From NCBI RefSeq assembly GCF_964204645.1, contig NC_134035.1:2058001-2122000 (forward strand): a stretch of DNA of 64,000 bases. Direction: 5' to 3'. The notes beneath the pieces were generated by a model. That model saw only the letters and a program-made list of their open reading frames with translations, was not told the DNA's origin and did not search any database. Made by a program: the position numbers and the translations under genes. Numbering within the stretch: position 1 is the first letter of the stretch; each line of letters starts with the position of its first letter. Below are positions 3,801-55,446 of the stretch, piece after piece. The DNA is from Tubulanus polymorphus (taxonomy: Eukaryota; Nemertea; Palaeonemertea; Tubulaniformes; Tubulanidae).

Positions 3801-3828
3801 AAATATGGCTCCAAAACGAAAGCAGATA
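3801..3828 (+). CDS. Exon 1 coding part (MAPKRKQI)
   Basis: The acceptor TGTTTTCTAG ends at 3800 and the donor GTAAGT starts at 3829. The ATG is at 3805 in context AAATATGG, giving MAPKRKQI with a PKRK basic cluster typical of nuclear localisation signals. The acceptor just before the ATG means at least one non-coding exon lies upstream, probably within or beyond the repeat-rich first 3.8 kb. Phase 0 at the donor matches the following micro-exons. This start was chosen because it is the first ATG in the chain and follows a good 3' splice site. Confidence 0.65.
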
Positions 3829-6800
3829 GTAAGTATTCATTTTTTTGTTCCAATAATATGTCTGTATCTACATTGATACCTAGTATACTTACCTGAGTAG
3901 ATGTGCACTACGTCATCGATATTTTTGAGATAGTGCGCACTATTTCATTGATATATCGGAGCTAGATTTAAATCCCCCGCCCCCACTCCCCCTGGTGTTA
4001 GCGTTCATACCAACCCATCAAAGATACCGTCCACTCCACCTCACTAACCATCCAGGATACAGATGGAATAATGAATTAAATGTGCAATTGAACCCGGGAC
4101 CGGTTATCATTTGATGTTACAATCAATATTCAAAACTGAAACATTTTCTGGGGCCGGTTCCATAGTCAGGTCTTAGACTTAAGATCAGTCTAAGACCAAC
4201 TTGGTTCTATAGCCAATCTAACAACTTAAGACCAGTCTTAAGATTTAAGACCACTTTCGGACTTCAGTCTCGATTGACGTGCAACCACCCCCAGATGCTT
4301 ACTTTTCAAATAATTCTAATGAATGTGAATGTTATTGTTCTTTTCTAACAGCCAGAAGTCCTGGAGGAAATTCCGCCGCCAGTAAGTTTAGATTTCATGA
4401 TATCATTTTATATAAACCTGTTTTGTTTAACCTGGTCCTCTGAAGCCGGTTAGACTGATATTATCTTTAACCCGTGCTCAGGTAACTGAATTCACTTTTA
4501 ATCAAGTTAACCCAGATTTATTAAAGTAAACATTGGTCTCCATAAAACTGGCGCTTAGATTCATTGATCATTTAATGAATGATTTTTACAGATATGAATG
4601 TTAATTCTCTTTTCTAGATTACGATTGAAGCGGAAATTCATTTTGTAAGTTTTCTATTAATCTCCTCGGTGGAATATGATATCTACCATTTTCGCTGAGA
4701 GTCATTGAAACTTCATAACTCTTTAAGCAAGTTGTTACTGATTTCGTCTTCAGTTTGTGCGCGCGCTCACTTACACATACGCTTATATTTGCGCATGTAG
4801 TTCATAATTATCATCAAACTCGTAGTAATAACGATAATAGTAATGATGATAATTACAATTGTCATTTTTAAAGTGCAAATATCCCGATGAAAGGAATTAT
4901 CAAACTGATTTATCGCGTGGTGTTTTTGGTTTTCTCTCATTGTAACAAGTTTACTCTGATGAAATCTTTTTCCAGATATTAAACCTGTCTGGTATTCGTT
5001 TCAATCATGATCTCTGTTAAATGTGTGCTACTCAATATGAAATAACAATGCAATTAATTACTTTTCTTTCATCGCGACAGTTTGCTGCTGCAGCAGCAGC
5101 AACGACAACAGAAGTTTGAATTTTTCTGTTTCATGGACTCTATATCGTTTGAATCAAACTGTAAAACAAACGAATACAGAAATATCAAAGTTACAGAGAT
5201 CAGAGTTTTAATGCAAGAAATTAATGAATTCTCTTTTCTTTTATTGCAACAGAACAGACAAACAGCGACGAATACAGTAAGTTTGAATTTTTCTGTTTAA
5301 TGGACTTTATATTGTTTAAATAAAACCCTAAAACAAACGAATACTGAAATATCGAGGTTTTTCCGAATACAGATATAAAACTTGTCTTTTGTTTTAATTA
5401 TAATATGATCTCCTGTGTTTATTAATGTTTGCTACTGAATATGAAATAATGCAAGAAATTCATGAATTCTCTTCTTTTTTTTTTATTGCGACAGAATTCG
5501 ACGACGACAAGAACAACAACAGCACCAGAAGTAAGTGAGAAGTTTTCTGTATCATGGAATTTCTGTGGTGTTTATTTCTTTCTGACAGACGATGATTTGT
5601 TTGTGATTTTCATCGTATATTTCATACCGGGAACAAAGTCATGAAAATAATCCTGCTTTCAATGAAATAAAATTCCCGTCACTTAGAATTATTTTATAAT
5701 CAAGTTTTTTTTTATATAATATTAGCGCACACAGTAAAATCTGGAAACATTTGCTCACGGATATATGTGCATATATTTTATGTATCTCTTTTATTGATGT
5801 ATTTATATTTACTGTATTTAATGTGTGAACGTGAAATAACAAAACTAAAATGAATTCTCTTTTTTTCTTTCATGTCATCAGCGTAAACAAACAGCAGCAA
5901 AGGCAGTAAGTATTAATTCTTCTGTTACCTTGAAACAACCGATTCTTATGAGTTTTTCATCAGAATTATCATCAATTACAGAATTTAATCGGAGTTCGAT
6001 TCCCTTCGTAACTTATCGTTTTTGACCTGAATGTGAATGTTATTGTTCTTTTCTAACAGCCAGAAGTCCTGGAGGAAATTCCGCCGCCAGTAAGTTTAGA
6101 TTTCATGATATCATTTTATATAAACCTGTTTTGTTTAACCTGGTCCTCTGAAGCCGGTTAGACTGATATTATCTTTAACCCGTGCTCAGCTAACTGAATT
6201 CACTTTTAATCAAGTTAACCCAGATTTATTAAAGTAAACATTGGTCTCCATAAAACTGGCGCTTAGATTCATTGATCATTTAATGAATGATTTTTATAGA
6301 TATGAATGTTAATTCTCTTTTCTAGATAACAGTAGAAGCGGAAATTCATTTTGTAAGTTTTCTATTAATCTCCTCGGTGGAATATGATATCTACCATTTT
6401 TGCTGAGTCATTGAAACTTCATAACTCTTTAAGCAAGTTGTTACTGATTTCGTCTTCAGTTTGTGCGCGCGCTCACTTACACATACGCTTATATTTGCGC
6501 ATGTAGTTCATAATTATCATCAAACTCGTAGTAATAACGATAATAGTAATGATAATAATTACAATTGTCATTTTTAAAGTGCAAATATCCCGATAAAAGG
6601 AATTATCAAACTGATTTATCGCGTGGTGTTTTTGGTTTTCTCTCATTGTAACAAGTTTACTCTGATGAAATCTTTTTCCAGATATTAAACCTGTCTGGTA
6701 TTCGTTTTAATAATGATCTCTGTTAAATGTGTGCTACTCAATATGAAATAACAACGCAATTAATTACTATTCTTTCATCGCGACAGTTTGCTGCTGCTGC

Positions 6801-8510
6801 AGCAGCAACGACAACAGAAGTTTGAATTTTTCTGTTTCATGGACTCTATATCGTTTGAATCAAACTGTAAAACAAACGAATACAGAAATATCAAAGTTAC
6901 AGAGATCAGAGTTTTAATGCAAGAAATTAATGAATTCTCTTTTCTTTTATTGCAACAGAACAGACAAACAGCGACGAATACAGTAAGTTTGAATTTTTCT
7001 GTTTAATGGACTTTATATTGTTTAAATAAAACCCTAAAACAAACGAATACAGAAATTTCAGGGTTTTTCCGAATACAGATATAAAACTTGTCTTTTGTTT
7101 TAATTATAATATGATCTCCTGTGTTTAATGTTTGCTACTGAATATGAAATAATGCAAGAAATTCATGAATTCTCTTCTTTTTTTATTGCGACAGAATTCA
7201 GCGACGACGACGACGACGACAAAAACGACAGCACCAGAAGTAAGTGAGAAGTTTTCTGTATCATGGAATTTCTAGTCGTGTTTATTTCTTTCTGACAGAC
7301 GATGATTTGTTTGTGATTTTCATCGTATATTTCATACCGGGAACAAAGTCATGAAAATAATCCTGCTTTTAATGAAATAAATGCCCGTCACTTAGAATTA
7401 TTTTATAATCAAGTTTTTTTTATATAATATTAGCGCACACAGTAAAATCTGGAAGCATTTGCTCACGGATATATGTGCATATATTTTATGTATCTCTTTT
7501 ATTGATGTATTTATATTTACTGTATTTAATGTGTGAACGTGAAATAACAAAACTAAAATGAATTCTCTTTTTTTCTTTCATGTCATCAGCGTAAACAAAC
7601 AGCAGCAAAGGCAGTAAGTATTAATTCTTCTGTTACCTTGAAACAACCGATTCTTATGAGTTTTTCAACAGAATTATCATCAAAATTACAGAATTTAATC
7701 GGAGTTTGATTCCCTTCGTAACTTATCGTTTTTGACCTGAATGTGAATGTTATTGTTCTTTTCTAACAGCCAGAAGTCCTGGAGGAAATTCCGCCGCCAG
7801 TAAGTTTAGATTTTATGATATCATTTTATATAAACCTGTTTTGTTTAACCTGGTCCTCTGAAGCCGGTTAGACTGGTATTATGTTTAACCCGTGCTCAGT
7901 TAACTGAATTCACTTTTAATCAAGTTAACCCAGATTTATTAAAGTAAACATTGGTCTCCATAAAACTGGCGCTTAGATTCATTGATCATTTAATGAATGA
8001 TTTTTATAGATATGAATGTTAATTCTCTTTTCTAGATAACAGTAGAAGCGGAAATTCATTTTGTAAGTTTTCTATTAATCTCCTCGGTGGAATATGATAT
8101 CTACCATTTTTGCTGAGAGTCATTGAAACTTCATAACTCTTTAAGCAAGTTGTAACTGATTTCGTCTTCAGTTTGTGCGCGCGCTCACTTACACATACGC
8201 TTATATTTGCGCATGTAGTTCATAATTATCATCAAACTCGTAGTAACAACGATAATAGTAATGATGATAATTACAATTGTCATTTTTAAAGTGCAAATAT
8301 CCCGATGAAAGGAATTATCAAACTGATTTATCACGTGGTGTTTTTGGTTTTCTCTCATTGTAACAAGTTTACTCTGATGAAATCTTTTTCCAGATATTAA
8401 ACCTGTCTGGTATTCGTTTTAATAATGATCTCTGTTAAATGTGTGCTACTCAATATGAAATAACAACGCAATTAATTACTATTCTTTCATCGCGACAGTT
8501 TGCTGCTGCT

Positions 8511-8542
<32 letters not shown>

Positions 8543-11500
8543 GACAACAGAAGTTTGAATTTTTCTGTTTAATGGACTCTATATCGTTTGAATCAAACTG
8601 TAAAACAAACAAATACAGAAATATCAAAGTTACAGAGATCAGAGTTTTAATGCAAGAAATTAATGAATTCTCTTTTCTTTTATTGCAACAGAACAGACAA
8701 ACAGCAACGAATACAGTAAGTTTGAATTTTTCTGTTTAATGGACTTTATATTGTTTAAATAAAACCCTAAAACAAACGAATACTGAAATATCGAGGTTTT
8801 TCCCGAATACAGATATAAAACTTGTCTTTTGTTTTAATTATAATATGATCTCCTGTGTTTATTAATGTTTGCTACTGAATATGAAATAATGCAAGAAATT
8901 CATGAATTCTCTCTTTTTTTTATTGCGACAGAATTCGACGACGACAAGAACAACAGCACCAGAAGTAAGTGAGAAGTTTTCTGTATCATGGAATTTCTGT
9001 GGTGTTTATTTCTTTCTGACAGACGATGATTTGTTTCTGATTTTCATCGTATATTTCATACCAGGAACAAAGTCATGAAAATAATCCTGCTTTCAATGAA
9101 ATAAATTCCCGTCACTTAGAATTATTTTATATATCAAGTTTCTTTTATATAACATTAGCACACACAGTAAAATCTGGAAGCATTTGCTCACGGATATATG
9201 TGCATATATTTTATGTATCTCTTATTGATGTATTTATATTTACTGTATTTAACGTGTGAACGTGAAATAACAAAACTAAAAGGAATTCTCTTTTTTTCTT
9301 TCATGTCATCAGCGTAAACAAACAGCAGCAAAGGCAGTAAGTATTAATTCTTCTGTTACCTTGAAACAACCGATTCTTATGAGGTTTTCGTCAGAATTAT
9401 CATCAAAGTTACAGAATTTAATCGGAGTTCGATTCCCTTTGTAACTTATCGTTTTTGACCTGAAAAAAGGCGGCTCTAAATCCAATTCGGTTACAGATAT
9501 CAAACCTGTCTATTTTTGGTTTATTTGTATTGGTCATCAAATTCAATTCTTGGCGCACATTTTTATGCCCATAAACTGGTGCTGATTTTCATAAGCGCAA
9601 CGATTGAATAGATTCCGACTCTTTTTTTTCTTTCGCCTGGTAGATTTTCTGCAAAACAAGATGATGTTTTCCATGGTCGATTTACCAATTCCTAGGCTTT
9701 GTATTAATGAATTTTATTCTTTTACAGCATCACACTGGAACGAGGTCCACGTTGGCGTCCCCAGACATCGAAGTAAGTTTAGATGTATCCGTTCTGTTGG
9801 CTGGTTATCAATTGTAATATGTTGAGACTTGAGATGAAAATGATTTGTATTGTGTTAGTACATGAGGTTAAAGCCTGTTTTTTGTTATGCCGTGTGCGGG
9901 GAAGGCAAAACACAAAACGCCGAACAGCAAAATGTCGTGTCCGTTGAACATTTTATTGTTTGTGGGCAAAACGTGTTCTGAAAAGTGTGTTTTCTGTTTT
10001 GGCGAAACAAATGTTATGCCGGTGCGGCGGGCTTAAGGCGAGTGAATAATTAGGGTATATGAGAAAAAAAGCGGGAATATAAATGAAGAACATTCGTAAC
10101 TCTTTGCCTGCCACGCCTATTTTTCAGGCAATGCTGCGTTTTGCCAGGATTTCCGTGTTTTTCAGAGATTCATAAAACAAAAACAAGAAGAGATATCTTC
10201 TCGTCAAATTTGTTTTATATCTTTGATCTGGTCTTGCATTTTCATGTAAAATAAGCGGCATTTCTTCTAAGAGTGATAAAATCTGTAGCGATAACCAGTG
10301 CAGAGGGAGTATTTTGCAGAATATATGCTCGTTCATGCGTGTTCAGCCCCCATTTCAATAGATGATGTCACTCGCACACTGTATAGAACAACTGATGAGT
10401 TTGTTTAGTAGTAAAAGGCATTAAACTAACTGGTGTTGTGCGATGAATTCGCCATCTATCGTTAGAGTTAAGAACCAAGCCAACCGTATCGGTACGGTTT
10501 TGAGTTAAGAATCAAGCCAACCGTATCGGTACGGTTTTGAGTTAAGAATCAAGCAAACCGTATCGGTACGGTTTTGAGTTAAGAAACAAGCCAACCGTAT
10601 CGGTACGGTTTTGAGTTAAGAAACAAGCCAACCATTTTGCCAGTACGGTTTTGGCAGGAATGTGATGGGAGATAACGAACATACAAGTACGTGTTTGGGT
10701 GGAAATGAGTTAAGGAGCCACGTCGGATCAACCCACCTCCCAGTATATATCATCCAAGGGCATAACTCTTTCAGCACTCACGGGTGATTTGATAAAAAAA
10801 AACACTCAGAGTGCCCATCATTGGTAACATAAAAGTAGGAAAATCGATAGAAACTTTCGAGCTCCATAGAGTGAAAACTGTAAGAGATGAGCTTAATGTT
10901 AATTGAAAGGTTTCTAGGGTATGACTGACCCTTAGAAAAGATTGGTAACAATTTTTTGAAAAATGATCTAATTTGCACGAATTATAGCTCTTTTTAAGAG
11001 CCTCAAAACGCTAAGCGCCACACATGGCATTATAAGTGGATTCGTTGTTTAAGAGACCAGAGAAAAACATTCGACTAAGAAACTCTGTCGTCACAAGGGT
11101 TTGAACCTATAAACCCTGGATTGACGAGACCAGTGACCGGCGGCTTAGTCCACTTGGCCACTGCGCCTCTCCAATTAATTATAGCTCAGCGACCAGTTTA
11201 TTTGCTAACTCCTTAAATTTCAGGTATAGGATAAACAACCCAAGGGCTTAACGACAATTTATTGAAATGTCGTTTTTGAGATGCTCTCACGATTCAATCT
11301 TTTGATGCAATTTTTTGGTAATTCGACTGTATTATTTAACGGGAGGGAGAGTTAATAGCGAAGCAAATATCGCAACTTTTTTGATGCCGTAAAAACCGGA
11401 ATTACAACGATGTTCATATACATTCATACCTAAGCGTTATTTAAAACAGGTTCTCATAGGCGTCCCCAGGAATTTTCATACGGGGTTCGAATAAGCATCA

Positions 11501-17500: not shown

Positions 17501-20500
17501 AACAAAGTCATAAAAATTCTCCTGTTCGTTTTATTAAATAACGATACAGAATCAAAACAATATCTATAACGAGGCATCCGTCGCTTAGAACTCATTTATT
17601 ACGTATATTGATACCTACGTGTGCTACTGAACATAAAATAACAAAACTAAAATTAATTCTCTTTTTTTCTTTCATGGCATCAGTGCAAACAAACAATAAC
17701 AACGACAACAACGAAAGAAGTAAGTTTTGGCCATGTTTTTAGTTTTCGCTCATCACTGACATTACTGATATCTTTCCTCGCAGTCTTAAATCGGCTCCAC
17801 TCAATTTCTCTCATGAAATGCTTTCCATGTTCGAACTACACGTGATCATGAACTTGAAAATGAAAAATGATTAAATCTAAATGTTGCTCGTTTATTTTAT
17901 AGGTCACCAGAAAGCGATGCCGATCCGTCGACGAGGTCAGTTTGAATTCTATCGAATCGTTCTCCCGTTATTACTTTCAATCTGTCTTTTCGTCCATAGA
18001 TAGGATCTCACAATCGCCAGTGGTATAGGCATTGTTCAGCAATTCAAGGGTGCTAATGTCCTAGAAAACCTGGCAATCTCATTGAATCAGAAAGATTGGG
18101 GAATTTGATAGATTTTTACCAAAATCCTGGTCCGTCGGTCGGTCCGTCGGTCGGTGATGTTCACGTCTCTGCACCCACAGCTTATGGTTATTCATGAAGA
18201 CTTGACCATTATTTCCTGTTTTAAGTCGTGTAGATTATTATCATTGTGGTTCAATATAGATTACGACTATCTGAAAGTTGAGATTTACTAAAGAAATGTG
18301 TATCAAAATTCTGAATGTTGATTTCAACTTTTTTTAAAATATTTTACAGCAACCCGTAAGCCCGCCTAAATGTCGGCGAGAGGAGGTAAGTTTCAATTTC
18401 ATTAAATCATTTTCGATATCGATGTTAAATATTGATAACCTTAGCCCTGTTTCATAGACTGTATATCAATAATACCCTAGAGGTATTTCTTCAACCTGAG
18501 CCCGATTTTGTAAACCGGATATCAATGTTACCCAGAGTTGCCAACCGTTCCTGATTTTCGGTATTTGTTACTCTTTTATGACAAGAAATACTGATTTGAT
18601 TTGTTCGATGCATATGAGAAGTATGAAAGATCTAACTGAGGGTCTTACTGTTGATTACTGATTGATTTGAACATTTATTTTCATATTACAATTTGTTACT
18701 GATAGCACTTTTCAGAGGTTGGCAGCCCTGTTGGTTGCCGATAGGTAAATCTTCAACATAGGTGACAACTTCATAATGAAAACCTTGGTAATGACTGAAA
18801 AATTTCAAAATGATCCCAGCTGGTATTATTTTTTCCCAACATCTATGAAACTTGGCTCTGGTGAACGCCTAGCCTCACTGGCAAGCAATTGTGATACTAT
18901 CGTGACCATATGTCACTTGTGATCAGTAAGTGTCATTTACCAAAAACATACGTACATTTTATCTTAATAAATTTTTTGTATTCTTTTTTATAGGACATCA
19001 ATTTATTCGACGACCTTTGGGTAAATATCCTTTTGATCGCCTACTCGTTCTCAGTGAATTTGGAGCCATCCCTTTCATTAGTGGGTGGCTCCATATATAC
19101 TCGCTTTTAGGGTTAGCTAGAATTTTTCATGATATTTCATGTTATTTTGATTACTAGAATGATGATTTCCCAGAGCCGCCGCCGCCGGAGCCCGAGGCTC
19201 CTACCATTATCGTAAGTTGTAAAAGATAATTATTTTCGTAGTTCACCAGATTATTATAATCTGATATTGATTTTCCTGCTGAAATATCCATGTTCTAAGA
19301 GATCCCATAGCATATCTCCACCAAGGTCAAACTTGGCTAAAGCTACGACCAATTTTGCTCGTAGGCTAAAGGCACCTAGTTTTTGCTAGCTTATTTGTTG
19401 TTGGAAAACATAAACACTGGTAATTCTGTTTGCAGCGCTGCAGCCGCTATACGGTATCATGGGTTCAATTCTAAAATGTCATTACTTAGGGGCAGTTCCG
19501 TGGGGGGCTGGTGAATTTGGCTATATTCCTTAAAGATATTTTTTGCCTGACCGCTGCAGCTGCCGCAGTTTAGGGGTCCTAACCAATAAGAATTTTGAAA
19601 TATGTTCTAATTTCCTTGTATCTGGGACATTCTGTTGGATCGAGTTACTTTAAAAAAAAAAATGTTATTCTGACTATATTCCGGAATACAATGGAATCTA
19701 GTTTGGATCCGCTACTGATTAAGCTATATAGAGTAGTATCTTCGGTCCTAAATTAATCACAGCTGAAGCCAGTTATATCTAAAGAGTGTTTGAAAGTAGT
19801 CGCACTCGGTCACAGTTTGTATCGATGCGAATATTCATCTTACCGAGTTCATATTATTCGTAAAATTGGCATTGATAATAGCGTGAAGCAATGTTTTTAA
19901 GTGAAACTAAGAATGTTTAAAAGTTGCGGCTCGGTCACAGTTTTGTATCGATGTGAATATTCTTCAGACCGAGTTAGTAGAATATTGAAATCATGTCACG
20001 CAGCATCCATCGGTTCAATTATCCTCAAAACAGTCTCTAAATCGAGGGTCAACTAAGAATTTCGATCATGGAATCTTTCATCCGTGGTATAGTTATTCAA
20101 AACTTGATTTCAGAATTTTTTTTCTTTACATTTCTAGGAATCGGAAATCGCGCGTATTGTGCAAATTGACGTAAGTTTACAATAGACAATTTCAGTTACA
20201 CATGTTGACACCCAGTGACTTTATAAATACCACCTGCCTGCCATCTACTGACAAAAACTTGAACTTTATTCCATAATGTACACTATACCGTTGTGGTTCT
20301 CATAAATCCGATCATTAGTAACAACCTATAACGTAATAATAACTATTTTTGATGGTTCACCAGATGAGGCTTTTTCTTAAATAGCTTGGTTTACGGGAAC
20401 CGCCTCCCGAAATTTGAAGAAAAGTCAAACAAAAGTAGAATTTTTTTTTACTCCCATCTGTGGAACAAATTCAGTGGAAAACGAGCAAAAAAGTTTTTCA

Positions 20501-23500
20501 CCTTCGCCGAATGAGAATCCCGGCTTGAATGATGAAAAAATTGAAAACCGCGCGTTTATTCTTTTTTTGATCACATTTGTGTGCAGAATTCGAACTTTCC
20601 AAGGATCATTGTTTTGGACATATGTATATTGCCCTATCGATCGTTCCCTCTTCCTTCAAAAACTGTGTTTATCGCGCTGAGCGAGTTCTTTTTTTTAAAT
20701 TTTCCGAAATGATATTTCAATAGTCTACCCTGTCAACCAAGCTATTAAAAAAATGCGAGATTCGAGATAATTTATTCTGATTTTCATAAATGCTAAATTG
20801 AGCTCTTGTTTTTCTTTTTATGTAGAGAAATGAATTCCACACGTGCGTGAATGTGCCGGTAAATATTGTGAACATTTCTATTGAATTTACAGTTGAACAC
20901 AAACGACTGCAGATGAAATATGTCTGAATTTTTGTTGACGTTGTTAAACTAAAGTTGATTTTTTATTTTATAGAAGAGGAAGCTCGAGGTACCGGCATCG
21001 GTGAGTTTGAATTTCATCAAATCATTTTACAGTCCGTTCGTCTGTGTGCCTGTCTCTCCGTCTGTCCGCCTGTCTCTCCGTCTGTCCGCCTGTCTCTCCG
21101 TCTGTCCGCCTGTCTCTCCGTCTGTGTGCCTGTCTCTCCGTCTGTCCGTCTGCCGACGGGATCTTGTGAAAGTTTAAGCTTACGACAAGTATGATTTGTG
21201 ATTGCGACGAGAGTTTGTCGATGCGAAAAAAACCATTTTCCAAGTGGCTTGAACATCTATTTTGGGCATGGAAAAAAAGGCACAAGATTTTCGCGATGGT
21301 AGTACGTGCCTCTTGTGATTGTGGAGAGTTTGTTGAAGCCCTTTTTGCAAGTGGTGTTGTCGTTTCTGCACCCGCAGTTCATGGTTATTCATTTCCATTT
21401 TTTAGTTGTGTAGATTATCATTTTCGTGGCTCACCAAAGATTATTAAGATAATCTGAAATTGAGATTTCCTTCAGAAATATGTTTGAAAATTCTGGATGT
21501 TGATTTCAACTTGTTTTTATTTTATAGGACCCCGTTAGCCCTAAACGGGCACGCGTCGGACCGGTTAAAGTAAGTTTGATTTGAGTCAAATCATTTTAAG
21601 TGAAGCTAATTTCAAATAAGTTTATTGATAATCTGGGCAGGGTTTTATAGACCACATCATTTTCTCCTAGGGGTAAATCCTCAACCGTGGCCTGATTTCA
21701 TAGACCGGGTTTCAATGTTGCCCCTAGCGGTAAATCCTCAACATAGGTGACAACCACCATTGTAACAATGATAAACTATGGTAAAAACTGACAAATTTTT
21801 AAATGTTTCCAGTTGTCCGAGCGTTCAAACCACTTTTCAAGTGATTTTCGCGTCTCTGCACCCACAGTTCATGGTTATTCATGAAGACTTGACCATTATT
21901 TCCTGTTTTAAGTCCTGTAGATTATTATCATTGTGGTTCACCAATGATTATGAGGATATTTTATTGTTTTCAAAATCTGCATCGGAAAAAGAATTAAAAT
22001 AGTGTAGAATTCTTCTGCTTTGGATCTCGTGGCACCAAAAAATCGAAACCAAAAAAAAGTAAAAATACCTAATTCTGGGGCGGCGGGACAGGGAGAGATC
22101 TAGAAATTTATGACAATCGGCTTGATGACCATCGCACGGAACTAACTGAATATCATTGGCTGGAAAACTAGGATCCAGCATCGGTATCTCTTTACTAGAT
22201 CATAACTTCAAACTGTGGAACTGGGTCCAGAACTGCGGAGCCAGGTTCTGTAACTGTGGGACTGGGTCCAGAACTGCGGAGCCAGGTTCTGTAACTGTGG
22301 GACTGGGTCCTGAACTGTGGAACCAAGTTTTATTATATTAAATTGAAATGAATCATTTTCATGTTTTTATAACCAATGGAAATATCGTTTTTTTACTTTC
22401 TAGACTGAAACACCTGCGACGCCGCCGCCGCCGCAAGCTGATGTAAGTTTGAACTATAAGTGAAAATAATTATAATGCATCAAATACACTGAATGTGTTG
22501 ATCATTACTGACACTTCAATGAACAGGAAGACATACAGAATCCCTGAATCTCTCTGGTCCTACTGAGCTATTCACATGTAGAATCCCTGAATCTCTCTGG
22601 TCCTACCGAGCTATTCTGATACCGAATTCTCCAATCAGTAAGAAATCATTTAATGTTTCGATGATTTAATCAATGTCGATTGTTTTGTTTTTTTCCAGAG
22701 AGACGAGATACCGCCGCTGAGGCGATCGCCGCGGCTGAGACGCCGAAGAGTAAGTTATTAGAGCCCTTGCGCTGTCATATATTCAGGTGAAAACTACTCA
22801 AATTAGAGATATCAAATAGTCGGGTATTTTTAACCGTAATGATATGATCCAGTGCTCACTATTAATACAATAAGAGATGCGCGAAAAAATATCGATGCTC
22901 TAATTTGACGACGACTTGTCGCACTTCTTGTTCACTTTCTGTCCCATTAGATTGTCTCACATACCTAAGCGGTGCCATCTGAAGGGATAGCTGGCGTGCC
23001 AGTTCCCTACTGTTCAAATTTCATTAAAGCGATGATGAAAGGATTATCCAATGGACCGGAACTGCTATACATAAACGCCGAATGTACTATAAAGAGAAAT
23101 CAAGAAAAACTTTGAAATTGTGATTTCTTGGTTTGTTTGGAAACTTTGCGCTGCATTAGTTGAGCTCTTGAAATGCTCTTGTTTGCAGGCTCTCTTTCAG
23201 CTTTTGATTTCATATAGGGAATTGGCCCCATTATCTCTCTAATTACGATTCGTGTTATCGAAACGCTAGTAAAAACTGCATGAATTTTGACTTTTTTTGT
23301 TGTTTTCTTAAACCTTAACATCATGATTGTTATTATATTATAGGCAGAAAATGCAGCTGCCGCCCCCGCCGCCCCCGTCGATGCGACGGAAAATGGTAAG
23401 TCTACACATATTCATGATCCTATTTAGATATGTCCGTTTGTAGCCAGACATTTTTAGCAGAGCTGCCCAAACTGTTACTGATTTTCGGTATTTGTTACTA

Positions 23501-25064
23501 TTTTATGACAAGAAATACTGAATTTGTCTCTGATTTGAACAGAAATATGAAAGATGTTACTGAGCGCCTTACTGTTGATAACTGATGATTAATTTAGTTA
23601 ACTGTAACTCACAACTGTGGAACTGGGTCCTGGATCCCGAGTTCAGAGTTAACTTTAACTCGTAACTGTAGAACTGGATCCTGAGTTCAGAGTTAAATCT
23701 AACTCATGTGTGGAACTGGATCCTGAGTTCAGAGTTAACTCTCGCAAATGTAGAACTAGATTCTGAGTTCAGAGTTAACTCATTTGTGGAACTGGATCCA
23801 GCACGTTAAAATTCCCAAAATCATGTCACTCCTGATGGAGTATGACGGCAGTATAACGGACTTTGACTGTATTGTCCACGTGGTAAAACTCCTATTGATC
23901 GTCCATGATTTAATGAAATACTAATAATTTTTCTCATTTATTTATTTTACAGTCATCGAAGAGATAAGGCGGAATATCGCCGCGGATCCGCGGTACTTAC
24001 TTAATTTTTTGACGCGATGTAAGTACAACTTTTTGCATTTATACTCTCTCCTCTCTCTTTCCACTGATCACATCATTTTTCATCCCCCCCCCCCCCCCCC
24101 CCGCTCGTGTTGAGATAAGTATCCTCAACGTACATTGAATAAGGTACTGGCTGCGTACAGATGGCGCAAAAATACACTCGTTGATACGCGATGAAATTAG
24201 TTTATTTTCGAACTCGATTTTCGCTTACAAAATTCAAATATAATCAAACGAATTTTTGTTCGAGCAACTTTCGCGTTGAGGAGAGAATCCCACAATGATA
24301 ATAAAAAGTCCAAAAATGAAACTTCGAGATAGTAGTTTATTTCAACGTTTCGACTATATCCTAATAGTCATCTTCAGGAATAATTCCTGATTATTATGAA
24401 GTTTCATTTTCGGACTTTTTATTATCATTGTGGGATTCTCTCCTCATCGCGTCAACACGGATAAAGTGTTCTACCAATCGTGAACTTTCGCGTATTGATA
24501 AAGCGATGAGTCGGCTACAGTTCAATCGGGAAGTGTCGACGAAATTGAAGCACGGTTATTGAGGAGTAACCACTAGCTGATCCTCGCTTGCCACAGTAAC
24601 GCAGCCACTGCCTCATCAAGCCCCGGGTCTTATTGACGGTACATCCTAGAAATAATTGAAATCGAAAAACGAGATCATTGTTCCCCTTACAGAATTCTGT
24701 ATAACAAAAGCCTATTTATTTTCGTGCGGCGTCAACCATTTTCAGACACATCGTGAAATATCAGTAACTAACGATACACCGCGCCGTGGTGTAGACGCAC
24801 TGTAGTGCTATTCCCGTTATTCAACACACTTGGGTGGAATTTTTCAAAATTTTCAAATTATCTCCAGCACTATAGGGTATTGATCAGTCAGCACTGAAAG
24901 GGTTAATAAGATAAAAAACCAACTTTATTTACAAATTAAAAGAATTCTAAAATCGAGAATTTATTTATGGAAACAATCTAAAACATAAGAACACGACGTT
25001 TCGATCTCACCCTAGAGATCATCGTCAGGTGTGAGATATTGACTAAAAACGGATTAATTATATA

Positions 25065-25096
<32 letters not shown>

Positions 25097-27084
25097 AGAA
25101 CAGGTTAATTGAGTGATTTGGTGAGTAAGTAATTAGTGTTTGGCAAGGCATGAAGTAATATACTCCATATACCATATGTCGCTCATTGTTTTAAACACAT
25201 ACCGCATCAAATTTGGTTTAAATACGACCAGTGATACCGCGCGGTCTGAATAAACCATCGTTTTTGCATCCATTTTACGCTGTTAATTGAAGCATTGCCA
25301 AAAAAGTCTTCTTGAACTGATTTGAATCAGAGAAAATAGACTGCATTTTATGAACTAGATCAATTTTAACAAGTTTCCATGCCTACCATTTAGAATTATT
25401 TCCAAATCATCATGAATCATGGTTTGCGGTTATGGCAGGGGTTGACCTGATGGTTAAGTGATGGTTCGCTGATGGTATGACACCTATTTATTTGTTCATG
25501 TGACTGTACAATACAATGATACAATGTTTAGTTACTTCTGTGCTGTACTGTAGTAACCCTGTCCCGACAACCCTAAACTCTCAACCAGCCCATCAATGTC
25601 ACTCATGGAGACTGATATTGTATTCTTTCCGCATCCCCCATTCTGCTGCATGATGATGTCACAAATTATTGGCAACCAATCACGCTTCAAGTGGAAAGTC
25701 AACCATTTTGTATTAATGAGATTACTAGCTACACTGGGTTCACTGTAAATCTACAAGGGCTGAGCCAGGATTTTTGGAAGGTTTACTGAAGGGCACATGA
25801 GCACTCGTGAAGGGATGAAAGGGGTCTTAAGTGTTTCTCCCCAGAAAATTTTGAAATTTTGTTGCCCGAGGCTATTCGATAGCCATCATCAGGGAATACT
25901 TGATATTTCTTTATAAAATGGAAAAAGAAATTCCTAAAATATCTTGAGGGCACCTCAAGATATTAAAGGCGGGGGACTGGATCCGCCCTTGATATATTAA
26001 TTGTTTCTCCTGATTGTTAATGTATTTCTTTCTATTTTATATTTTACAGTGGAACCAATATTAATTGAGACGGTGGAGGATGGTCCGGAGGACGTGAAAG
26101 AGGCCATAGACCTCTTTCACTTGAACCTTGGTCCTGTCTTGGATGACCAGCTGGCAGACCCCGTTCCAGCTGCTGCCTCCCCGGATAGGCGCCCTAGGCA
26201 GCGGACCCTCCGGCAGCCGCACCCTCTTGCACAGAGGTGGTCCCGTCGCGTGGACGGGCGGCTGTGGGAGGGGGAGTTACGGGAGGTAAGCATCATCTCA
26301 ACATTAACTGTTTTTTTTATATTTCTCTCAGTTTTGATTTCGAATGAATTTCTCTCACACGAACAGTTTTTATGAATCACTTATAATATCTTTTCTTTAA
26401 TAATACTTTCATTTTCAGCGAGCCATCGTCATTTTTTTTTTTGCTTTATTTTCTAACCCTTTAGAATATTGTTTCCCAGATCGCGACGATTTATCTCTTT
26501 GTTTATATGTAATCAATTGTTTCATTATTTCAGCTCGGTTACTGATCCGAAAATTTTCTGTAAAAAATCACTTTTCAACCGATCATTTAGTAAATGAATG
26601 TTTTCTTTTTTTGCAGACGGGCACGCGCACCGCTCGGCATCGAAGACGACGCCGTCCGGCGGTTCGTCGCGGTGGTGTGGCGCCTCCCGAGGGGGAGCGA
26701 CGCGGTGGCGGAGGGGAGGAGATCGGCGTCGTGGCAGTTCCGGAGGTGGTGGAGGCGGTGCCGGTGCCGGAGCCGGAGCCGGAACCGGAACCGGTGTTTG
26801 AACCGGTCCCGGAGCCGGAGCCGGAACCGGAACCGGTAGAAGAGGAGATGGTCGTGGAGGTTGAGGAGGTAAGAGGGGTTCCTCCTGCCCCCGTGGAGCC
26901 GTTGGCCGCTGCCCCGGTTTCGGCGCTGGACAGAGTTCTGTCCAGCGACCGATGCCGCGCCGAAGTGCGGGTGGTGGCTCGCGGTTCCGTGGGACCGTGG
27001 GAGGAGCTTCTATCTTCGGATAGATCAAAGGCTCTTTTACATGATTTAAAATCGGTCTTGTTTAGGCGTGGGTACAGGGAGTAG
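3805..27084 (+). CDS. 47-exon micro-exon gene, nuclear-type low-complexity protein (whole gene span)
   Basis: I do not recognise the family. By eye, 47 exons with AG acceptors and mostly GTAAGT donors chain into one frame from ATG 3805 to TAG 27082-27084, about 814 residues. Forty-two exons are 54 nt or less (24, 27, 30, 33, 36, 45, 48 nt are common). All are phase 0-0 except the exons at 23344 (0-1), 23953 (1-1) and 26050 (1-0), whose phases fit each other; that fit is strong internal support. The protein runs: short basic start, three copies of a PEVLEEIPPP-led cassette, a more complex middle (13.1-13.7 kb), Ala/Thr/Lys/Pro repeats, basic NLS-like motifs (VTRKRCRSVDE, KRKLEVPAS, DPVSPKRARVGPVK, SPRLRRRR), then a helical-looking segment and a Pro-Glu acidic tail. 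A nuclear role is inference. Symmetric exons would allow many in-frame splice forms. The upstream 5' UTR exon and promoter were not found. Confidence 0.75.
4140..4265. repeat. Inverted-repeat-rich intronic element
   Basis: GGGGCCGGTTCCATAGTC is followed by several mutually inverse blocks (GTCTTAGACTTAAGATC, CTTAAGACCAGTCTTAAG). It lies in intron 1 and is probably the end of a MITE. The other end was not found. Confidence 0.4.
4352..5905 (+). CDS. Exon cassette, copy 1 (six micro-exons)
   Basis: Exons: 4352-4381 PEVLEEIPPP; 4618-4644 ITIEAEIHF; 5081-5113 FAAAAAATTTE; 5253-5276 NRQTATNT; 5495-5530 NSTTTRTTTAPE; 5882-5905 RKQTAAKA. All are phase 0-0 and follow AG acceptors with T-rich tracts. 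Donors are GTAAGT except at the Ala/Thr exon, where the sequence is GAA then GTTTGA. Compared with sister donors (ACA-GTAAGTTTGAA), one T appears to be lost (ACA-GAAGTTTGAA), so the original donor is broken. Read-through there gives GAA GTT TGA, an immediate stop. The exon must use the weak GTTTGA donor, be skipped in frame, or act as a poison exon. Flanking introns match cassettes 2 and 3 nearly base for base. Confidence 0.7.
6060..7613 (+). CDS. Exon cassette, copy 2 (six micro-exons)
   Basis: Exons: 6060-6089 PEVLEEIPPP; 6326-6352 ITVEAEIHF; 6787-6819 FAAAAAATTTE; 6959-6982 NRQTATNT; 7195-7239 NSATTTTTTKTTAPE; 7590-7613 RKQTAAKA. It lies 1708 bp after copy 1 in exact register, introns included, so it is a segmental tandem duplication. 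The fifth exon differs by expansion of ACG/ACA threonine codons, and exon two has Val for Ile. The broken GTTTGA donor is shared with copies 1 and 3, so it predates the duplication. Frame is kept throughout. Confidence 0.7.
7770..9336 (+). CDS. Exon cassette, copy 3 (six micro-exons, Ala expansion)
   Basis: Exons: 7770-7799 PEVLEEIPPP; 8036-8062 ITVEAEIHF; 8499-8552 Phe, 13 Ala, TTTE; 8692-8715 NRQTATNT; 8932-8964 NSTTTRTTAPE; 9313-9336 RKQTAAKA. It lies 1710 bp after copy 2. The third exon has a GCA trinucleotide expansion that raises the Ala run from 6 to 13, a likely length-polymorphic site. Its donor is again GTTTGA. After the last exon the shared intron sequence ends near 9.47 kb, which marks the edge of the duplicated block. 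Confidence 0.7.
9728..9772 (+). CDS. Micro-exon HHTGTRSTLASPDIE
   Basis: The acceptor CTTTTACAG ends at 9727 and the donor GTAAGT starts at 9773. The 45-nt, phase 0-0 exon reads HHTGTRSTLASPDIE. It is less repetitive than the cassette exons and has no paralogue that I see in the window. The next intron is the longest of the first half (3.4 kb) and carries inserted elements. Confidence 0.6.
10465..10652. repeat. 37-bp tandem repeat, each unit a hairpin
   Basis: About five units. Each has GAGTTAAGAA then the palindrome AACCGTATCGGTACGGTT (arms AACCGTA/TACGGTT, 4-nt loop). The fifth unit is degraded. Located in the 9.8-13.2 kb intron. Confidence 0.8.
11086..11172 (-). tRNA. tRNA-like pseudogene or tRNA-derived SINE head
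   Basis: On the minus strand, GGAGAGGCGCAGTGGCCAAG (A-box, Ser/Leu-like) is followed about 55 nt later by GGTTCAAACCC (B-box). No clean anticodon stem or acceptor stem forms, so a working tRNA is unlikely. Pol III promoter boxes are the only clear signal. Confidence 0.45.
11757..12211. repeat. Direct repeat pair around a CRE/CCAAT block
   Basis: About 66 bp at 11757-11822 (GAGCATTTCAAAATAACAAT...) recurs at 12147-12211. Between them, 11880-12070 is GC-richer with TGACGTCA (11916-11923) and two ATTGG boxes (about 11970 and 12030), a promoter-like combination. Bases 12115-12127 read GGGTTCGAATCCC, a B-box match without a convincing A-box. Confidence 0.45.
12212..12703. mobile_element. hAT-like MITE, 492 bp
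   Basis: The ends CAGTGTTGCCACTT and AAGTGGCAACTCTG are inverse with one mismatch, and AATATA flanks both sides. The direct repeat at 11757 shows the uninterrupted site (TTTGTAATATAAC), so insertion happened in one of two duplicated copies. hAT elements usually make 8-bp duplications; only six bases are clear here. Subterminal TCCGGATTT motifs occur at both ends. Confidence 0.7.
13161..13728 (+). CDS. Two larger exons of complex sequence (folded-domain candidate)
   Basis: Exon 13161-13241 (81 nt, donor GTAATG) begins EIETVFELKLGTSLRASF and ends TRKHP. Exon 13609-13728 (120 nt, donor GTAAGA) begins QVIVDTPRVHAIVVVRGPK, holds DNCYEYAHELRDRL and ends VAQE. Both are phase 0-0. Composition is balanced rather than low-complexity, with a beta-like run (VHAIVVV) followed by a likely amphipathic helix, so this is the best candidate for a folded domain in the protein. 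I do not recognise it. Codons here are GC-richer than the flanking introns, which supports coding use. Confidence 0.65.
14480..14910 (+). CDS. Three charged and Ala-rich micro-exons
   Basis: Exons: 14480-14506 TLKEKRKME; 14607-14633 RERKKKALE; 14863-14910 QTKAAAAAAAKTAAAF. The first two are highly charged and helix-prone, the third is Ala/Lys. The intron starts after the second and third exons (GTAAGTTTGAA) match those of the cassette exons at 5277 and 6983, so these exons derive from the same ancestral exon. All are phase 0-0. Confidence 0.65.
15442..17116 (+). CDS. Tandem two-exon unit, three copies (TKP/QKP...IPAR repeats)
   Basis: Six exons alternate between two types. Type A: 15442-15489 (QKPKTTAAV...VPAR), 16098-16133 and 16741-16776 (QKPTTTAAIPAR). 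Type B: 15783-15830, 16426-16473 and 17069-17116 (TKPTAAATAAAAIPAR). Acceptors are TTATTGCAG and donors GTAAGT; every exon is phase 0-0. Copies 2 and 3 are 643 bp apart and almost identical, introns included, so the duplication is recent (or an assembly duplicate). Lys-Pro-Thr-Ala composition resembles linker-histone or protamine-like tails, but that is composition only. Confidence 0.7.
17393..18385 (+). CDS. Four micro-exons turning basic (NLS-like)
   Basis: Exons: 17393-17419 KPTAAAPKE; 17684-17719 CKQTITTTTTKE; 17903-17935 VTRKRCRSVDE (donor GTCAGT); 18350-18385 QPVSPPKCRREE. All are phase 0-0. The last resembles the exon at 21528 (DPVSPKRARV...). The introns just upstream of both also share a 150-200 bp block, so the two exons look like duplicates. 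Arg/Lys clusters with SP sites suggest a nuclear, phosphorylatable protein (inference). Confidence 0.6.
17990..18349. repeat. Intronic repeat shared with 21.3-22.0 and 32.4-32.6 kb
   Basis: A block containing TCTCTGCACCCACAGCTTAT and TGAAGACTTGACCATTATTT recurs at about 21350-21510 (diverged), 21770-21970 and, inverted, 32390-32585. It lies upstream of the related exons at 18350 and 21528, consistent with exon-plus-intron duplication. Confidence 0.6.
18994..20858 (+). CDS. Four acidic and mixed micro-exons
   Basis: Exons: 18994-19020 DINLFDDLW (donor GTAAAT); 19158-19211 begins NDDFPEPPPPEPEAP and ends TII; 20138-20170 ESEIARIVQID; 20826-20858 RNEFHTCVNVP (donor GTAAAT). All are phase 0-0. 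DINLFDDLW is a short acidic-aromatic stretch like many transactivation or docking motifs, but such motifs are too short to assign. The exon at 20826 has the weakest context of the set. Confidence 0.55.
19790..19985. repeat. About 120-bp tandem duplication in intron
   Basis: CTCGGTCACAGTTTGTATCG...GAATATTC...ACCGAGTT occurs twice, near 19805 and 19930, with moderate divergence. The rest of this intron (19212-20137) shows no gene. Confidence 0.55.
20974..22749 (+). CDS. Four basic/proline micro-exons (KRKLEVPAS to SPRLRRRR)
   Basis: Exons: 20974-21000 KRKLEVPAS (donor GTGAGT); 21528-21569 DPVSPKRARVGPVK; 22404-22442 TETPATPPPPQAD; 22699-22749 RDEIPPLRRSPRLRRRR. All are phase 0-0. PKRARV resembles the classical monopartite NLS class, and the Arg-rich last exon could bind nucleic acid or act as a second NLS. 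The exons at 21528 and 22699 have recognisable relatives in the inverted copy at 31.8-33.7 kb. Confidence 0.65.
21033..21155. repeat. 20-bp minisatellite
   Basis: Five to six copies of GTCTCTCCGTCTGTCCGCCT directly after the exon at 20974. The continuous frames on both strands here are repeat artefacts. Confidence 0.85.
22195..22335. repeat. 56-bp tandem repeat (GGAACTGGGTCC family)
   Basis: About 2.5 copies of AACTGTGGRACTGGGTCC plus GAACTGCGGAGCCAGGTTCTG. The related array at 23600-23805 has about five shorter units (GGAACTGGATCCTGAGTTCA). The same family is at 170-235. Confidence 0.75.
23344..24018 (+). CDS. Ala-rich exon and helical exon (phase 0-1 and 1-1)
   Basis: Exon 23344-23395 (52 nt) reads AENAAAAPAAPVDATEN and ends one base into a codon. 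Exon 23953-24018 (66 nt) completes that codon as Val and reads VIEEIRRNIAADPRYLLNF then LTR, ending one base into the next codon. The second looks like an amphipathic helix. The phase change here and its correct closure at 26050 argue that this chain is real. A relative of the second exon in the inverted copy (31790-31855) keeps its length and frame but has lost the acceptor AG. Confidence 0.65.
23600..23805. repeat. GGAACTGGATCC-family tandem repeat
   Basis: About five units of GGAACTGGATCCTGAGTTCA followed by GAGTTAACTC with variable spacing, in the intron before the exon at 23953. Confidence 0.7.
24084..24102. repeat. Poly-C run
   Basis: Nineteen consecutive C within the 24.0-26.0 kb intron. 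Likely length-variable. Confidence 0.9.
24278..24445 (-). mobile_element. Foldback element with hammerhead-like core
   Basis: Near-perfect 48-bp arms (24278-24325 and 24398-24445) enclose a core. On the minus strand the core reads CTGAAGA, T, a 6-bp stem GACTAT/ATAGTC with a 6-nt loop, then GAAAC. This follows the hammerhead order CUGANGA - stem II - GAAA, except for one extra U before the stem. Such cores are known from Penelope-like elements and retrozymes; activity is unproven. Confidence 0.55.
24740..24903. mobile_element. Truncated piggyBac-like MITE
   Basis: Inverse of the left half of the element at 2048-2343, ending CACTGAAAGGGTTAA. The opposite terminus is missing. Shares the ACACCGCGCCGTGGTGTAGA block. 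Confidence 0.65.
24996..25029 (-). other. Second hammerhead-like core
   Basis: The minus strand reads CTGACGA, T, stem GATCTC/GAGATC with a 6-nt loop, GAAAC. The layout equals the core at 24347-24377 although the stem sequence differs, so the structure rather than the sequence is kept. Confidence 0.5.
25060..25096. repeat. (TA)n microsatellite
   Basis: Mostly alternating TA with short interruptions. Confidence 0.85.
25200..25430. mobile_element. Partial palindromic foldback copy
   Basis: CAAATTTGGTTTAAATACGA through CCATGCCTACCATTTAGAAT is related to the arms of the element at 2348-2770, rearranged. The next 25430-26049 holds no gene. Confidence 0.45.
25870..25892 (-). other. Third hammerhead-like half core
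   Basis: The minus strand reads CTGATGA, T, stem GGCTAT/ATAGCC with a 3-nt loop, but continues TCGGGCAAC in place of GAAAC, so it is degraded. Confidence 0.35.
26050..26285 (+). CDS. Exon with acidic helical segment then Arg-rich segment
   Basis: 236 nt, entered in phase 1 and left in phase 0 at donor GTAAGC. The acceptor ATTTTACAG ends at 26049. It reads EPILIETVEDGPEDVKEAID, continues through LFHLNLGPVLDDQLADP, then a Pro/Arg-rich part, and ends RLWEGELRE. The first half, with the preceding exon, may form one helical domain. The 2-kb intron before it carries a poly-C run, a TA repeat and several foldback elements. Two truncated relatives of this exon lie in the inverted copy (31888-31934 and 33568-33699). 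Confidence 0.7.
26617..27084 (+). CDS. Terminal coding exon: Arg-rich, Pro-Glu repeat, unique C-terminus
   Basis: The acceptor TTTTTTTGCAG ends at 26616; the stop TAG is at 27082-27084; 155 residues. Order: basic start (TGTRTARHRRRRRPAVRRGG), Gly-rich link, an acidic run of alternating Pro-Glu (EPEPEPEPVFEPVPEPEPEP) repeated on both sides of a Phe, an EEE/VEVEE patch, then a balanced C-terminus containing DRVLSSDRCRAEVRVVARGS and ending LFRRGYRE. It is the most GC-rich coding stretch in the window. The minus-strand open frame over it is a shadow. No obvious AATAAA was seen in the next 1.8 kb. Confidence 0.75.
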   Translation, partial: TGTRTARHRRRRRPAVRRGGVAPPEGERRGGGGEEIGVVAVPEVVEAVPVPEPEPEPEPVFEPVPEPEPEPEPVEEEMVVEVEEVRGVPPAPVEPLAAAPVSALDRVLSSDRCRAEVRVVARGSVGPWEELLSSDRSKALLHDLKSVLFRRGYRE

Positions 27085-31500: not shown

Positions 31501-32199
31501 GGAACGGTGATACCAGCATGAAAATGTTTTTTGCTTCTCACTCTCAAGTTTTGTCAGTATTTGAGATAATTTAGGATTTCTTTTGATACATAATCTTCTG
31601 ATTATCGGTCGAACAGGAAAGTGTAATTGATAACGGATAGAGCGAGATAGTTTTACACCATTACAGCCAGTACTTTATTCAATATACGTTGAGGATATTT
31701 ATCTCAACACGAGCGGCGGATGAAAAATGATGTGATCAGTGAAAACAGAAAGTAGAGAGTATAATATAAGTGCAAAAAGTTGTACTTACATCGCGTCAAA
31801 AAATTAACTAAATACCGCGGATCCACGGCGATATTCCGCCTAATCTCTTCAATGATTGTTAAATAAACAAATTGAGATGATGCTTACCTCCCGTAACTCC
31901 CCCTCCAACAGCCAAGGTTCAGATGAAAGAGATCGAAAAATAACCACAACTAGAAATCATTGTGATCTTGAAAGTATTTTGATATTTCAAAGCTCTTAAA
32001 AATGGAGGCACTACTCTCAAAGTCGTTATCAGGTCTGGAATACCACTAACTCAGTAAACAATTCAAACTTACTCTACGGCGTTGTAGCCGCGGCGACCGC
32101 CGTAACGGCATTTCGTCTCTCTGGAAAAACAAAACGATCAACATTGATTAAATCATCGAAACATTAAATGATTTCTTACTGTTTGGAGAATTCGGTATC

Positions 32200-32370
32200 A
32201 GAATAACTTGGTAGGACCGGAAAGGTTCAGGGATTCTATATGTGAATAGCTCGGTAGGACCGGAAAGGTTCAGGGATTCTATATGTGAATAGCTCGGTAG
32301 GACCGGAAAGGTTCAGGGATTCTTATATGTGAATAGCTCGGTAGGACCAGAGAGATTCAGGGATAATTCT
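32200..32370. repeat. 47-bp tandem repeat
   Basis: Four copies of GCTCGGTAGGACCGGAAAGG plus TTCAGGGATTCTATATGTGA. The parental gene's intron at 22530-22620 holds two inverse copies, so the array expanded after the inverted duplication. Confidence 0.75.
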
Positions 32371-32961
32371 TTTTCCGATGCAAATTTTGAAAACAATAAA
32401 ATATCCTCATAATCATTGGTGAACCACAATGATAATAATCTACATGACTTAAAACAGGAAATAATGGTCAAGTCTTCATGAATAACCATGAACTGTGGGT
32501 GCAGAGACGCGAAAATCACTTGAAAAGTGGTTTGAACGCTCGGACAACTGGAAACATTTAAAAATTTGTCAGTTTTTACCATAGTTTATCATTGTTACAA
32601 TGGTGGTTGTCACCTATGTTGAGGATTTACCGCTAGGGGCAACATTGAAACCCGGTCTATGAAATCGGGCCAAGGTTGAGGATTTACCCCTAGGAGAAAA
32701 TGATGTGGTCTATAAAACCCTGCCCAGATTATCGAACTTAAAATGATTTGACGCAAATCAAACTTACTTTCACGGCACCAACGCGGGCCCTTTTCGGGCT
32801 GGCTCAGGTGCAGGTGCGGCGACAACTGCAGCAGAGCTGCATTTTCTTCCTATAATATAATAACAATCATGATGTTAAGATTTAATTGATTAAAATTGAA
32901 TACGTCCTAAGATGTCACGGCGGCTGCAACATTTTCATTATCAGCTAATGAAGCGTGGGAT

Positions 32962-33499
32962 CGCCATCTGGTGGCGTAACTGGTGGGATCGCCATCTGGT
33001 GGACTTTGAGAATCTAGTTAAACTTATCAATTTGATCACAATCGAAATGGATATTTTCGATCATTTAGTTATAGAATTAACTCGTTTTGATGTTTTAACT
33101 CTACTGAGTCAAATCTTAACTGGAACTGGACCGCTTGGTATGCGTGTATTCAATATGTACAACTGAAAATACAAACGTTTCAGCTCTTATTTAGAATTCT
33201 TGGTTCCGCCCGGGCAAGTGAGATTTGCCATTTTTACATAAGTATATATAAACCCATCCACCAAAAATGTCTGGCTACAAACGGACATATCTAAAATAGG
33301 ATCATGAATATGTGTAGACTTACTATTTTCTGTGGCATCAGGGGCTACATTTTCTTCTCGACGATGTTGAGATTTAATTGATTAAAATCGAATATGTCTT
33401 ACCTTGAAATATCACGGCGGCTGCAACATTTTCGTTATTAGCTGATGAAGCGTAAAATTTCCATCTGGTGGCATAAATGGTGGGATCGCCATCTGGTGG
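32962..33499 (-). promoter_or_regulatory. Cluster of CTCF-core-like sites
   Basis: On the minus strand CCACCAGATGGCG occurs at 32962-32974, 32990-33002 and 33487-33499, matching the CCASYAGRKGGCG part of the CTCF consensus. A half-match lies near 33471. A similar site is at 525-537 on the plus strand. Binding is unproven; the copies could simply be repeat units. Confidence 0.35.
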
Positions 33500-33699
33500 T
33501 TTCGGTGACGCGATCGCCACCTGGTTAGTACAATATCAAATCTCATTGATGTTGAGATGATGCTTACCTCCCGTAACTCCCCCTCCGACAGCCGCCCGTC
33601 CACACGACGGGACCACCTCTGCGCAGCAGGGTGCGGCTGCCAGAGGGTCCGCTGCCTAGGGCGCCTAACTGGGAAGGCAGCAGTTGGAGCGGGGTCTGC

Positions 33700-55410: not shown

Positions 55411-55446
55411 TCTTCCTGTTAATGTGATTTCAATTTTATATTTCAG

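Follow-up and report, generated by a model that had tools for sequence, protein, structure and literature searches.

A multi-copy gene family built largely of small symmetric exons, with hairpins in its coding sequence and across its stop codon, in the nemertean Tubulanus polymorphus

In schistosome micro-exon genes (MEGs), symmetric exons of 6–36 bp make up about 80% of the coding length, and almost all of the encoded proteins are secreted or membrane-anchored (PMC5825161). The T. polymorphus gene described here resembles MEGs in its chains of short symmetric exons, in forming families with repeated exon-length patterns and in fast turnover (PMC5825161). However, the 29 exons no longer than 36 nt account for just 852 of its 2442 nt (34.9%), its start is not signal-peptide-like and its motifs look nuclear; the likeness claimed is one of architecture. 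An earlier note on this DNA, made from the letters alone, had named MEGs as the nearest published architecture. This stands for the short symmetric exons (44 of 47) but does not extend to membership: with 34.9% against about 80%, and lacking a signal-peptide-like start, the gene is MEG-like in architecture and is not classed as a MEG.

Fibrillar collagen genes have exons of 54 and 45 bp and are believed to have expanded as exons were added, for which unequal recombination has been put forward as one route (PMC4450265). Like them, the present gene builds a long protein region from many small exons; however, its translation contains no Gly-X-Y repeat and matches no Pfam family above cut-off, its modules differ from one another in sequence and charge, and its exon number varies between copies within one genome. 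Fibrillar collagen exons show phase-0 symmetry. Low-complexity or disordered modules encoded in small symmetric exons, as in the present gene, also occur in the PEVK region of titin and in tropoelastin, but these proteins are much larger or extracellular and their exon phases are different. Two further systems are relevant to other parts of the locus: the hairpin RNA (hpRNA) suppressors of the Drosophila Dox family, which originated as inverted copies, and the 3' stem-loop of replication-dependent histone mRNAs, which is short and lies after the stop codon. A limited literature search found no comparable gene family by title or abstract.

The gene lies on the forward strand of the window, by which we mean the whole stretch of 64,000 nucleotides analysed (C11:2058001-2122000). 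A rebuild of the 47-exon chain that the earlier note had proposed at 3805-27084 reproduced it exactly, with an ATG at 3805, a TAG stop ending at 27084, 2442 nt including the stop, 813 amino acids and no internal stops. AG is present at all 46 acceptors (exons 2-47) and GT at all 46 donors. The counts given in the note were recovered as well: 42 of the 47 exons are 54 nt or less, and 44 of 47 have phase-0 borders and a length divisible by three. The frame, which had been said to survive the whole chain, is open throughout, including the sole phase change, which runs through exons 44 (52 nt, phase 0 to 1), 45 and 46 (Table 1). The window holds a real gene. Because an acceptor stands four bases before the ATG, an upstream 5'UTR exon is implied. 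The six-exon block that makes up exons 2-19 encodes the modules PEVLEEIPPP, IT[IV]EAEIHF, polyAla-TTTE, NRQTATNT, Thr-rich APE and RKQTAAKA. Since this block is present three times and exons 26-31 are near-copies, the chain contains only about 31 distinct exon types, and not every exon counts as independent evidence.

Table 1. Features of the gene and its surroundings, in window coordinates
Feature	Position	Strand	Description
Exon 1	3801..3828	+	ATG at 3805, separated by four bases from the acceptor at 3799-3800; starts MAPKRKQI
Exons 2-19	4352..9336	+	A six-exon block (about 1.7 kb), present three times in tandem
Exons 20-24	9728..14633	+	HHTG..., EIETVFEL..., QVIVDTPRV..., TLKEKRKME, RERKKKALE
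Hairpin in exon 22	13640..13715	+	z -6.3
Exons 25-33	14866..17719	+	Ala/Thr/Lys-rich micro-exons; 26-31 near-copies of a two-exon block
Exons 34-44	17903..23395	+	Basic, acidic and S/T-P-rich micro-exons: VTRKRCRSVDE, QPVSPPKCRREE, DINLFDDLW ... RDEIPPLRRSPRLRRRR
Exon 45	23953..24018	+	66 nt, phase 1-1; equivalent exon of the C6 relative also 66 nt, phase 1-1
Exon 46	26050..26285	+	236 nt, phase 1-0
Exon 47 and stop	26617..27084	+	C-terminal module common to the diverged subfamily
Coding hairpin in exon 47	26915..26955	+	z -6.1; identical in 8/8 copies
Long hairpin across the stop codon	27062..27182	+	-69.9 kcal/mol, z -12.8; arms of at least 27 nt
Inverted partial copy	31664..33803	-	Scrambled, frame-broken copy of exons 41, 43, 44, 45 and 46

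With the DNA of exons 21-22 as query, the genome (77 contigs, 267.8 Mb) yielded nine full-length matches at 97–100% identity: six on contig C11 (copies A, which is the window copy, B, C, E, F and H), two on C9 (D and G) and one on C8 (I). Broken pieces of the same exons were found additionally on C8 and C11, and a stretch adjoining copy I (C8:13994766-13998645) carries rearranged partial exons 21-22 with repeated small pieces. Eight of the nine copies (A-G and I) were read through, copy H being known from matches only, and all eight have an open frame from the ATG to the same stop. They differ in exon number, with 47 in A, 46 in B, 42 in C, 44 in F, 38 in I and 43 in each of D, E and G. The six-exon block occurs three times in A-G and twice in I; in copy C a deletion of about 142 bp has removed the polyAla exon from one block, copy B carries an extra NRQTATNT exon, and the KPT-type exons (26-31) number from two to six per gene copy. 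Copies C, D, E, F, G and I each have one or two KPT-type exons whose acceptor sits three bases downstream, the first tandem AG having been lost, and in copy I an apparent in-frame TAG serves as the acceptor of a KPT-type exon. One GC donor was accepted as valid in copy G. All exon gains and losses among the copies leave the reading frame intact. Many exon length changes fall in triplet repeats, where slippage goes in steps of three in any case, and this counts against the explanation that we favor below.

The copies of the window type are under purifying selection as protein, micro-exons 34-44 included. Across exons 34-47 of seven copies (A-F and I), pN is 0.0094 and pS 0.0356 (ratio 0.26), with introns at 0.0178; across exons 20-25 of the same seven, the values are 0.0139 and 0.0488 (ratio 0.28), with introns at 0.0139. 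Among the 399 codons of exons 34-47, 19 vary nonsynonymously and 26 synonymously only, against an expectation of 72% nonsynonymous (p=2.5e-5). The deficit is seen both in micro-exons 34-44 taken by themselves (10 nonsynonymous and 15 synonymous variable codons, p=6e-4) and in exons 45-47 (9 and 11, p=0.011). Synonymous divergence in the window type is 2 to 3.5 times intron divergence, for which GC-rich codons or conversion of introns are possible causes; this excess, too, counts against the explanation favored below. Positive selection was considered as a cause of exons outpacing introns and was rejected, as nonsynonymous change is below the neutral expectation; it is also disfavored by exons 41 and 43, which differ mostly synonymously from their inverted copies.

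We give a probability of about 0.68 to the reading that this is a multi-copy protein-coding family, the product being a disordered, probably nuclear protein with a linker that differs from copy to copy through duplication of micro-exons. Each copy would encode a short basic N-terminus and a long region of micro-exon modules acting as the linker, followed by a C-terminal module (exons 45-47) that is conserved. Tandem duplication of small exon-plus-intron units would have enlarged the micro-exon array, and unequal exchange or deletion between similar introns, which is the mechanism we infer, would add or drop modules with the frame kept. Since nearly all of the units are phase-0 symmetric, gain or loss of modules is frame-safe, and linker length accordingly differs between copies. 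Thereafter the gene would have been duplicated as part of segments, at least about 51 kb long, that lie close to contig ends. Eight intact copies with 38 to 47 exons in one genome offer a natural experiment on gene growth by tiny exons, in which the changes are traceable, and an architecture known from secreted parasite proteins would be extended to a probably nuclear one. The multi-copy family, the nine-exon relative and hairpins described below, and the inverted fragment at 31.6-33.8 kb are additions to what the earlier note had reported.

That note had suggested that the symmetric exons could give a very large isoform set. Under this reading, alternative splicing would produce a very large set of proteins from each copy, as in schistosome MEGs. 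Exon symmetry makes this possible, since the 44 symmetric exons could be skipped without a frameshift, and the tandem CAGCAG acceptors that precede exons 26, 28 and 30 in the window copy could yield small in-frame variants. However, the strong donor GTAAGT is found at 36 of the 46 sites, pointing if anything to constitutive inclusion, and the variation that is observed lies in the DNA, between copies. The symmetry itself follows from tandem duplication of phase-0 exons, for which isoforms are unneeded. We therefore regard a role in isoform generation as unlikely, although it is the best-surviving of the alternatives to duplication of micro-exons between copies of a protein-coding family.

A search of the genome with the protein of exons 45-47 revealed a diverged subfamily. 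Beyond the nine copies and the broken pieces there are at least 35 matches to exon 47 at 45–48% identity, one of which (L042) is rearranged, and matches to exon 46 at 42–53%; 148 of 162 candidates were scored, so that the counts are lower bounds. The exon-47 matches are placed on C3 (at least 10), C6 (at least 19) and C8 (at least 6), in arrays whose members are often about 33 kb apart on C6. One relative on C6 was read and has nine exons, of 63, 90, 39, 27, 39, 76, 66, 230 and 393 nt. The phases of its last four are identical to those of exons 44-47 of the window gene, the 66-nt exon has the same length in both, and the C-terminal parts align at 41% identity. An acceptor is located 3 nt before its ATG, as at exon 1 of the window gene. 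With the DNA of its exons 5'-6' as query, at least 30 full-length matches were obtained (18 on C6, 11 on C3 and 1 on C8; 40 of 53 candidates scored). The homology covers the 3' exons, the upstream micro-exons of the window gene having no evident counterpart in the C6 relative. From the shared 3' exons and phases, the micro-exon chain of the window belongs to a family with at least one member that has few micro-exons. When 15 diverged relatives were compared over their last 90 codons, 11 codons varied nonsynonymously and 9 synonymously only, so that constraint is not visible from this comparison by itself; most of the 11 involve L039, which seems to be out of register where the 90 codons begin. 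The rearranged L042 was left out of the 15-sequence comparisons. By eye, a long intron of the C6 relative contains a degenerate reverse-transcriptase-like stretch, possibly DIRS-like (L032 3000-4300), and several nested inverted repeats lie 3' of its stop (L052 1-330).

Disorder-promoting residues make up 61% of the protein of copy A and 65% of that of the C6 relative, and on composition the protein is probably mostly disordered. By charge-hydropathy, in contrast, copy A (0.437 vs 0.416) lies beyond the usual boundary on the folded side, and the C6 relative on the disordered side. Copy A carries two K[KR]x[KR] motifs, in agreement with the NLS-like motifs that had been pointed out from the sequence, and three [ST]Px[KR] motifs; from these short motifs the protein is probably nuclear. 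The N-terminus MAPKRKQIPEVLEEIPPP is charged and proline-rich, and the best mean hydropathy over 12 residues within its first 40 is 1.36. By this crude test it is not signal-peptide-like, in agreement with the earlier note.

Searches beyond the genome returned no homologue in Pfam, PDB, IMG/VR or a collection of 5.8 billion predicted proteins. The best Pfam scores were DUF2530 (E 0.091, below its cut-off) for the window protein and DUF6508 (0.23) for the C6 relative; in PDB, exons 20-24 reached E 0.15 at best and exons 45-47 reached 0.53. Residues 204-306 and 575-690 had 0 matches at E<=1 among the 5.8 billion proteins, and two short peptide patterns identified no relative in IMG/VR. A two-row alignment of exons 45-47, scored against those of the 5.8 billion proteins that shared most words with it (7995 candidates), matched solely a bacterial PAL-like protein (5.6e-4), which was judged to be compositional. 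Kinship with the cohesin subunits REC8 or RAD21 was considered and dropped as no match was obtained. The collections searched are apparently mainly microbial, viral and metagenomic, and the family can therefore be called an orphan only provisionally. Neither Rfam at its gathering threshold nor a tRNA scan gave a match in the window.

Two hairpins are located within the coding sequence. For the one in exon 22, none of 2000 synonymous-codon controls, in which the protein was held constant, folded as well. Its inner stem is the same in all eight copies that were read; the outer part has changed in F and G, which pair better, and in I, where four changes weaken the fold. The hairpin in exon 47 was likewise equalled by 0 of 2000 controls, and so was that in exon 47 of the C6 relative, which has a z of -9.6. 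In a gap-free protein alignment the axis of the exon-47 hairpin coincides in the two subfamilies, dividing the same codon after its first base. Counting 21 positions outward from this axis, which was chosen by eye before counting, 13 pair in both subfamilies, five of those differing on both sides, a further three are paired in the window type alone and five in the relative alone; the comparison is effectively one of two lineages. As read from these alignments, the exon-47 hairpin keeps its axis in the diverged subfamily, with compensatory changes. Among the 15 relatives compared, some changes in a hairpin stem preserve pairing, as G-T in L034 and L036 and as T-G at the outer stem, and others break a pair, in L035 and L037 (T-T) and in L038 (A-C).

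The third hairpin straddles the stop codon. One uncompensated change is found in F and one in I among the eight window-type copies, and the C6 relative has a stop-straddling hairpin of its own with a z of -10.3. Such a hairpin occurs in 15 of the 16 relatives read there, the exception being L042, which is rearranged and lacks part of it. Between the subfamilies these hairpins are unlike in sequence, and their axes lie at different distances from the stop. Within 2.5 kb 3' of the stop, seven window-type copies contain neither AATAAA nor ATTAAA, although variant hexamers occur in the window; in the C6 relative an AATAAA is present at +629. A hairpin at the message end of a multi-copy gene for a putative nuclear protein recalls the histone stem-loop; however, the arms here are at least 27 nt long and span the stop codon. 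We infer that the hairpins function at the level of the mRNA and not as DNA palindromes, with 3'-end formation, stability and translation among the possible roles. A hairpin of fixed axis and changing sequence, together with the hairpins at the stop codon, makes a specific function at the RNA level testable. We suggest only tentatively that the locus represents a new gene system, in which dozens of interchangeable phase-0 micro-exons have their number of modules reset by unequal exchange, compensatorily conserved hairpins in the coding sequence and at the stop would provide dedicated 3'-end, translational or small-RNA control, and the family is clustered near contig ends. Separately, intron 45 contains an inverted repeat (24272-24451) with arms of 54 nt that are 96% complementary and 72 nt apart, resembling a small foldback element.

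Inverted pieces of the gene are found beside all nine units, eight of them seen by exon 45 and the ninth, at copy G, by exon 46. In the C6 arrays there are also six pieces, partial and rearranged, that run opposite in strand to the genes beside them. In the window, intron 41 (21528-21996) and its inverted copy (32364-32809, reverse strand) are 98.8% identical, whereas identity in the exon piece next to it is only 79%, most of the differences being synonymous. Multi-copy genes beside inverted partial copies are a feature shared with the Dox family in Drosophila and its hpRNA suppressors. The gene could be a selfish multi-copy gene that is silenced by small RNA from the inverted fragments and from hairpins of the message, as with Dox-type genes. 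The inverted copies in both subfamilies would fit such a genetic conflict, as would the strength of the hairpins, the copy number, the placement near contig ends and the failure to find relatives. However, the inverted fragment is scrambled, which is unlike the Dox family, and the coding sequence evolves under purifying selection and not rapidly. We consider this conflict improbable, and more so than isoform generation.

The copies share more than the gene. Relative to the window, a marker 0.9 kb before its start and another at offset 0.3-1.2 kb are present in all nine copies, a marker at offset 50-50.9 kb is present in eight and absent in E, and near offset 56 kb a full match was found in only some. 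Two pairs of copies lie in tandem about 80 kb apart, and the nine copies, as well as the diverged arrays, are all within about 3.1 Mb of a contig end. Markers from -0.9 to 50.9 kb common to eight of nine copies on three contigs could suggest that the shared segment is a large transposable unit with the gene as its own cargo or product. However, no transposase-, integrase- or capsid-like ORF was noticed by eye among the ORFs listed, the peptide patterns had no IMG/VR relative, and placement near contig ends with two tandem pairs is as in ordinary segmental duplication. A mobile element is, if anything, slightly less probable than a genetic conflict, and copying of a protein-coding gene within duplicated segments remains our preferred reading.

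Chance was addressed with a splice scan blind to the gene model, in which a polypyrimidine-YAG acceptor was paired with a GTRAG[TC] donor 9-130 nt away. Over 3701-27100 the scan recovered 21 pairs on the forward strand, 20 of them a multiple of 3 and 19 open in phase 0, against 0 on the reverse strand. The 36.9 kb downstream of 27100 gave 3 pairs on the forward strand (2 a multiple of 3, 0 open) and 1, which is open, on the reverse, and the first 3.7 kb of the window, scanned on the forward strand, gave 0. In 100 first-order Markov sequences the mean was 1.36 pairs (maximum 5), with a mean of 0.10 open and in phase (maximum 2). That the chain is a string of chance splice-like motifs or a dead repeat, as exons that are small, repetitive and in places of low complexity might suggest, is very improbable given the strand asymmetry and the Markov control, the eight intact copies, purifying selection within the micro-exons and exon phases kept in a relative of about 41% protein identity.

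Other repeats lie elsewhere in the window. A satellite array with a unit of about 40 bp (TTTGGGGTAAGATAAACTACCCCTGTAA) occupies 34384-38117, and one with a 29-bp unit occupies 40776-45791 and 48222-48356, with about 170 copies in the first stretch. Within 52517-64000 a 3.3-kb segment is repeated at 58937 and at 62452, the latter cut by the window end, at 88–92% identity.
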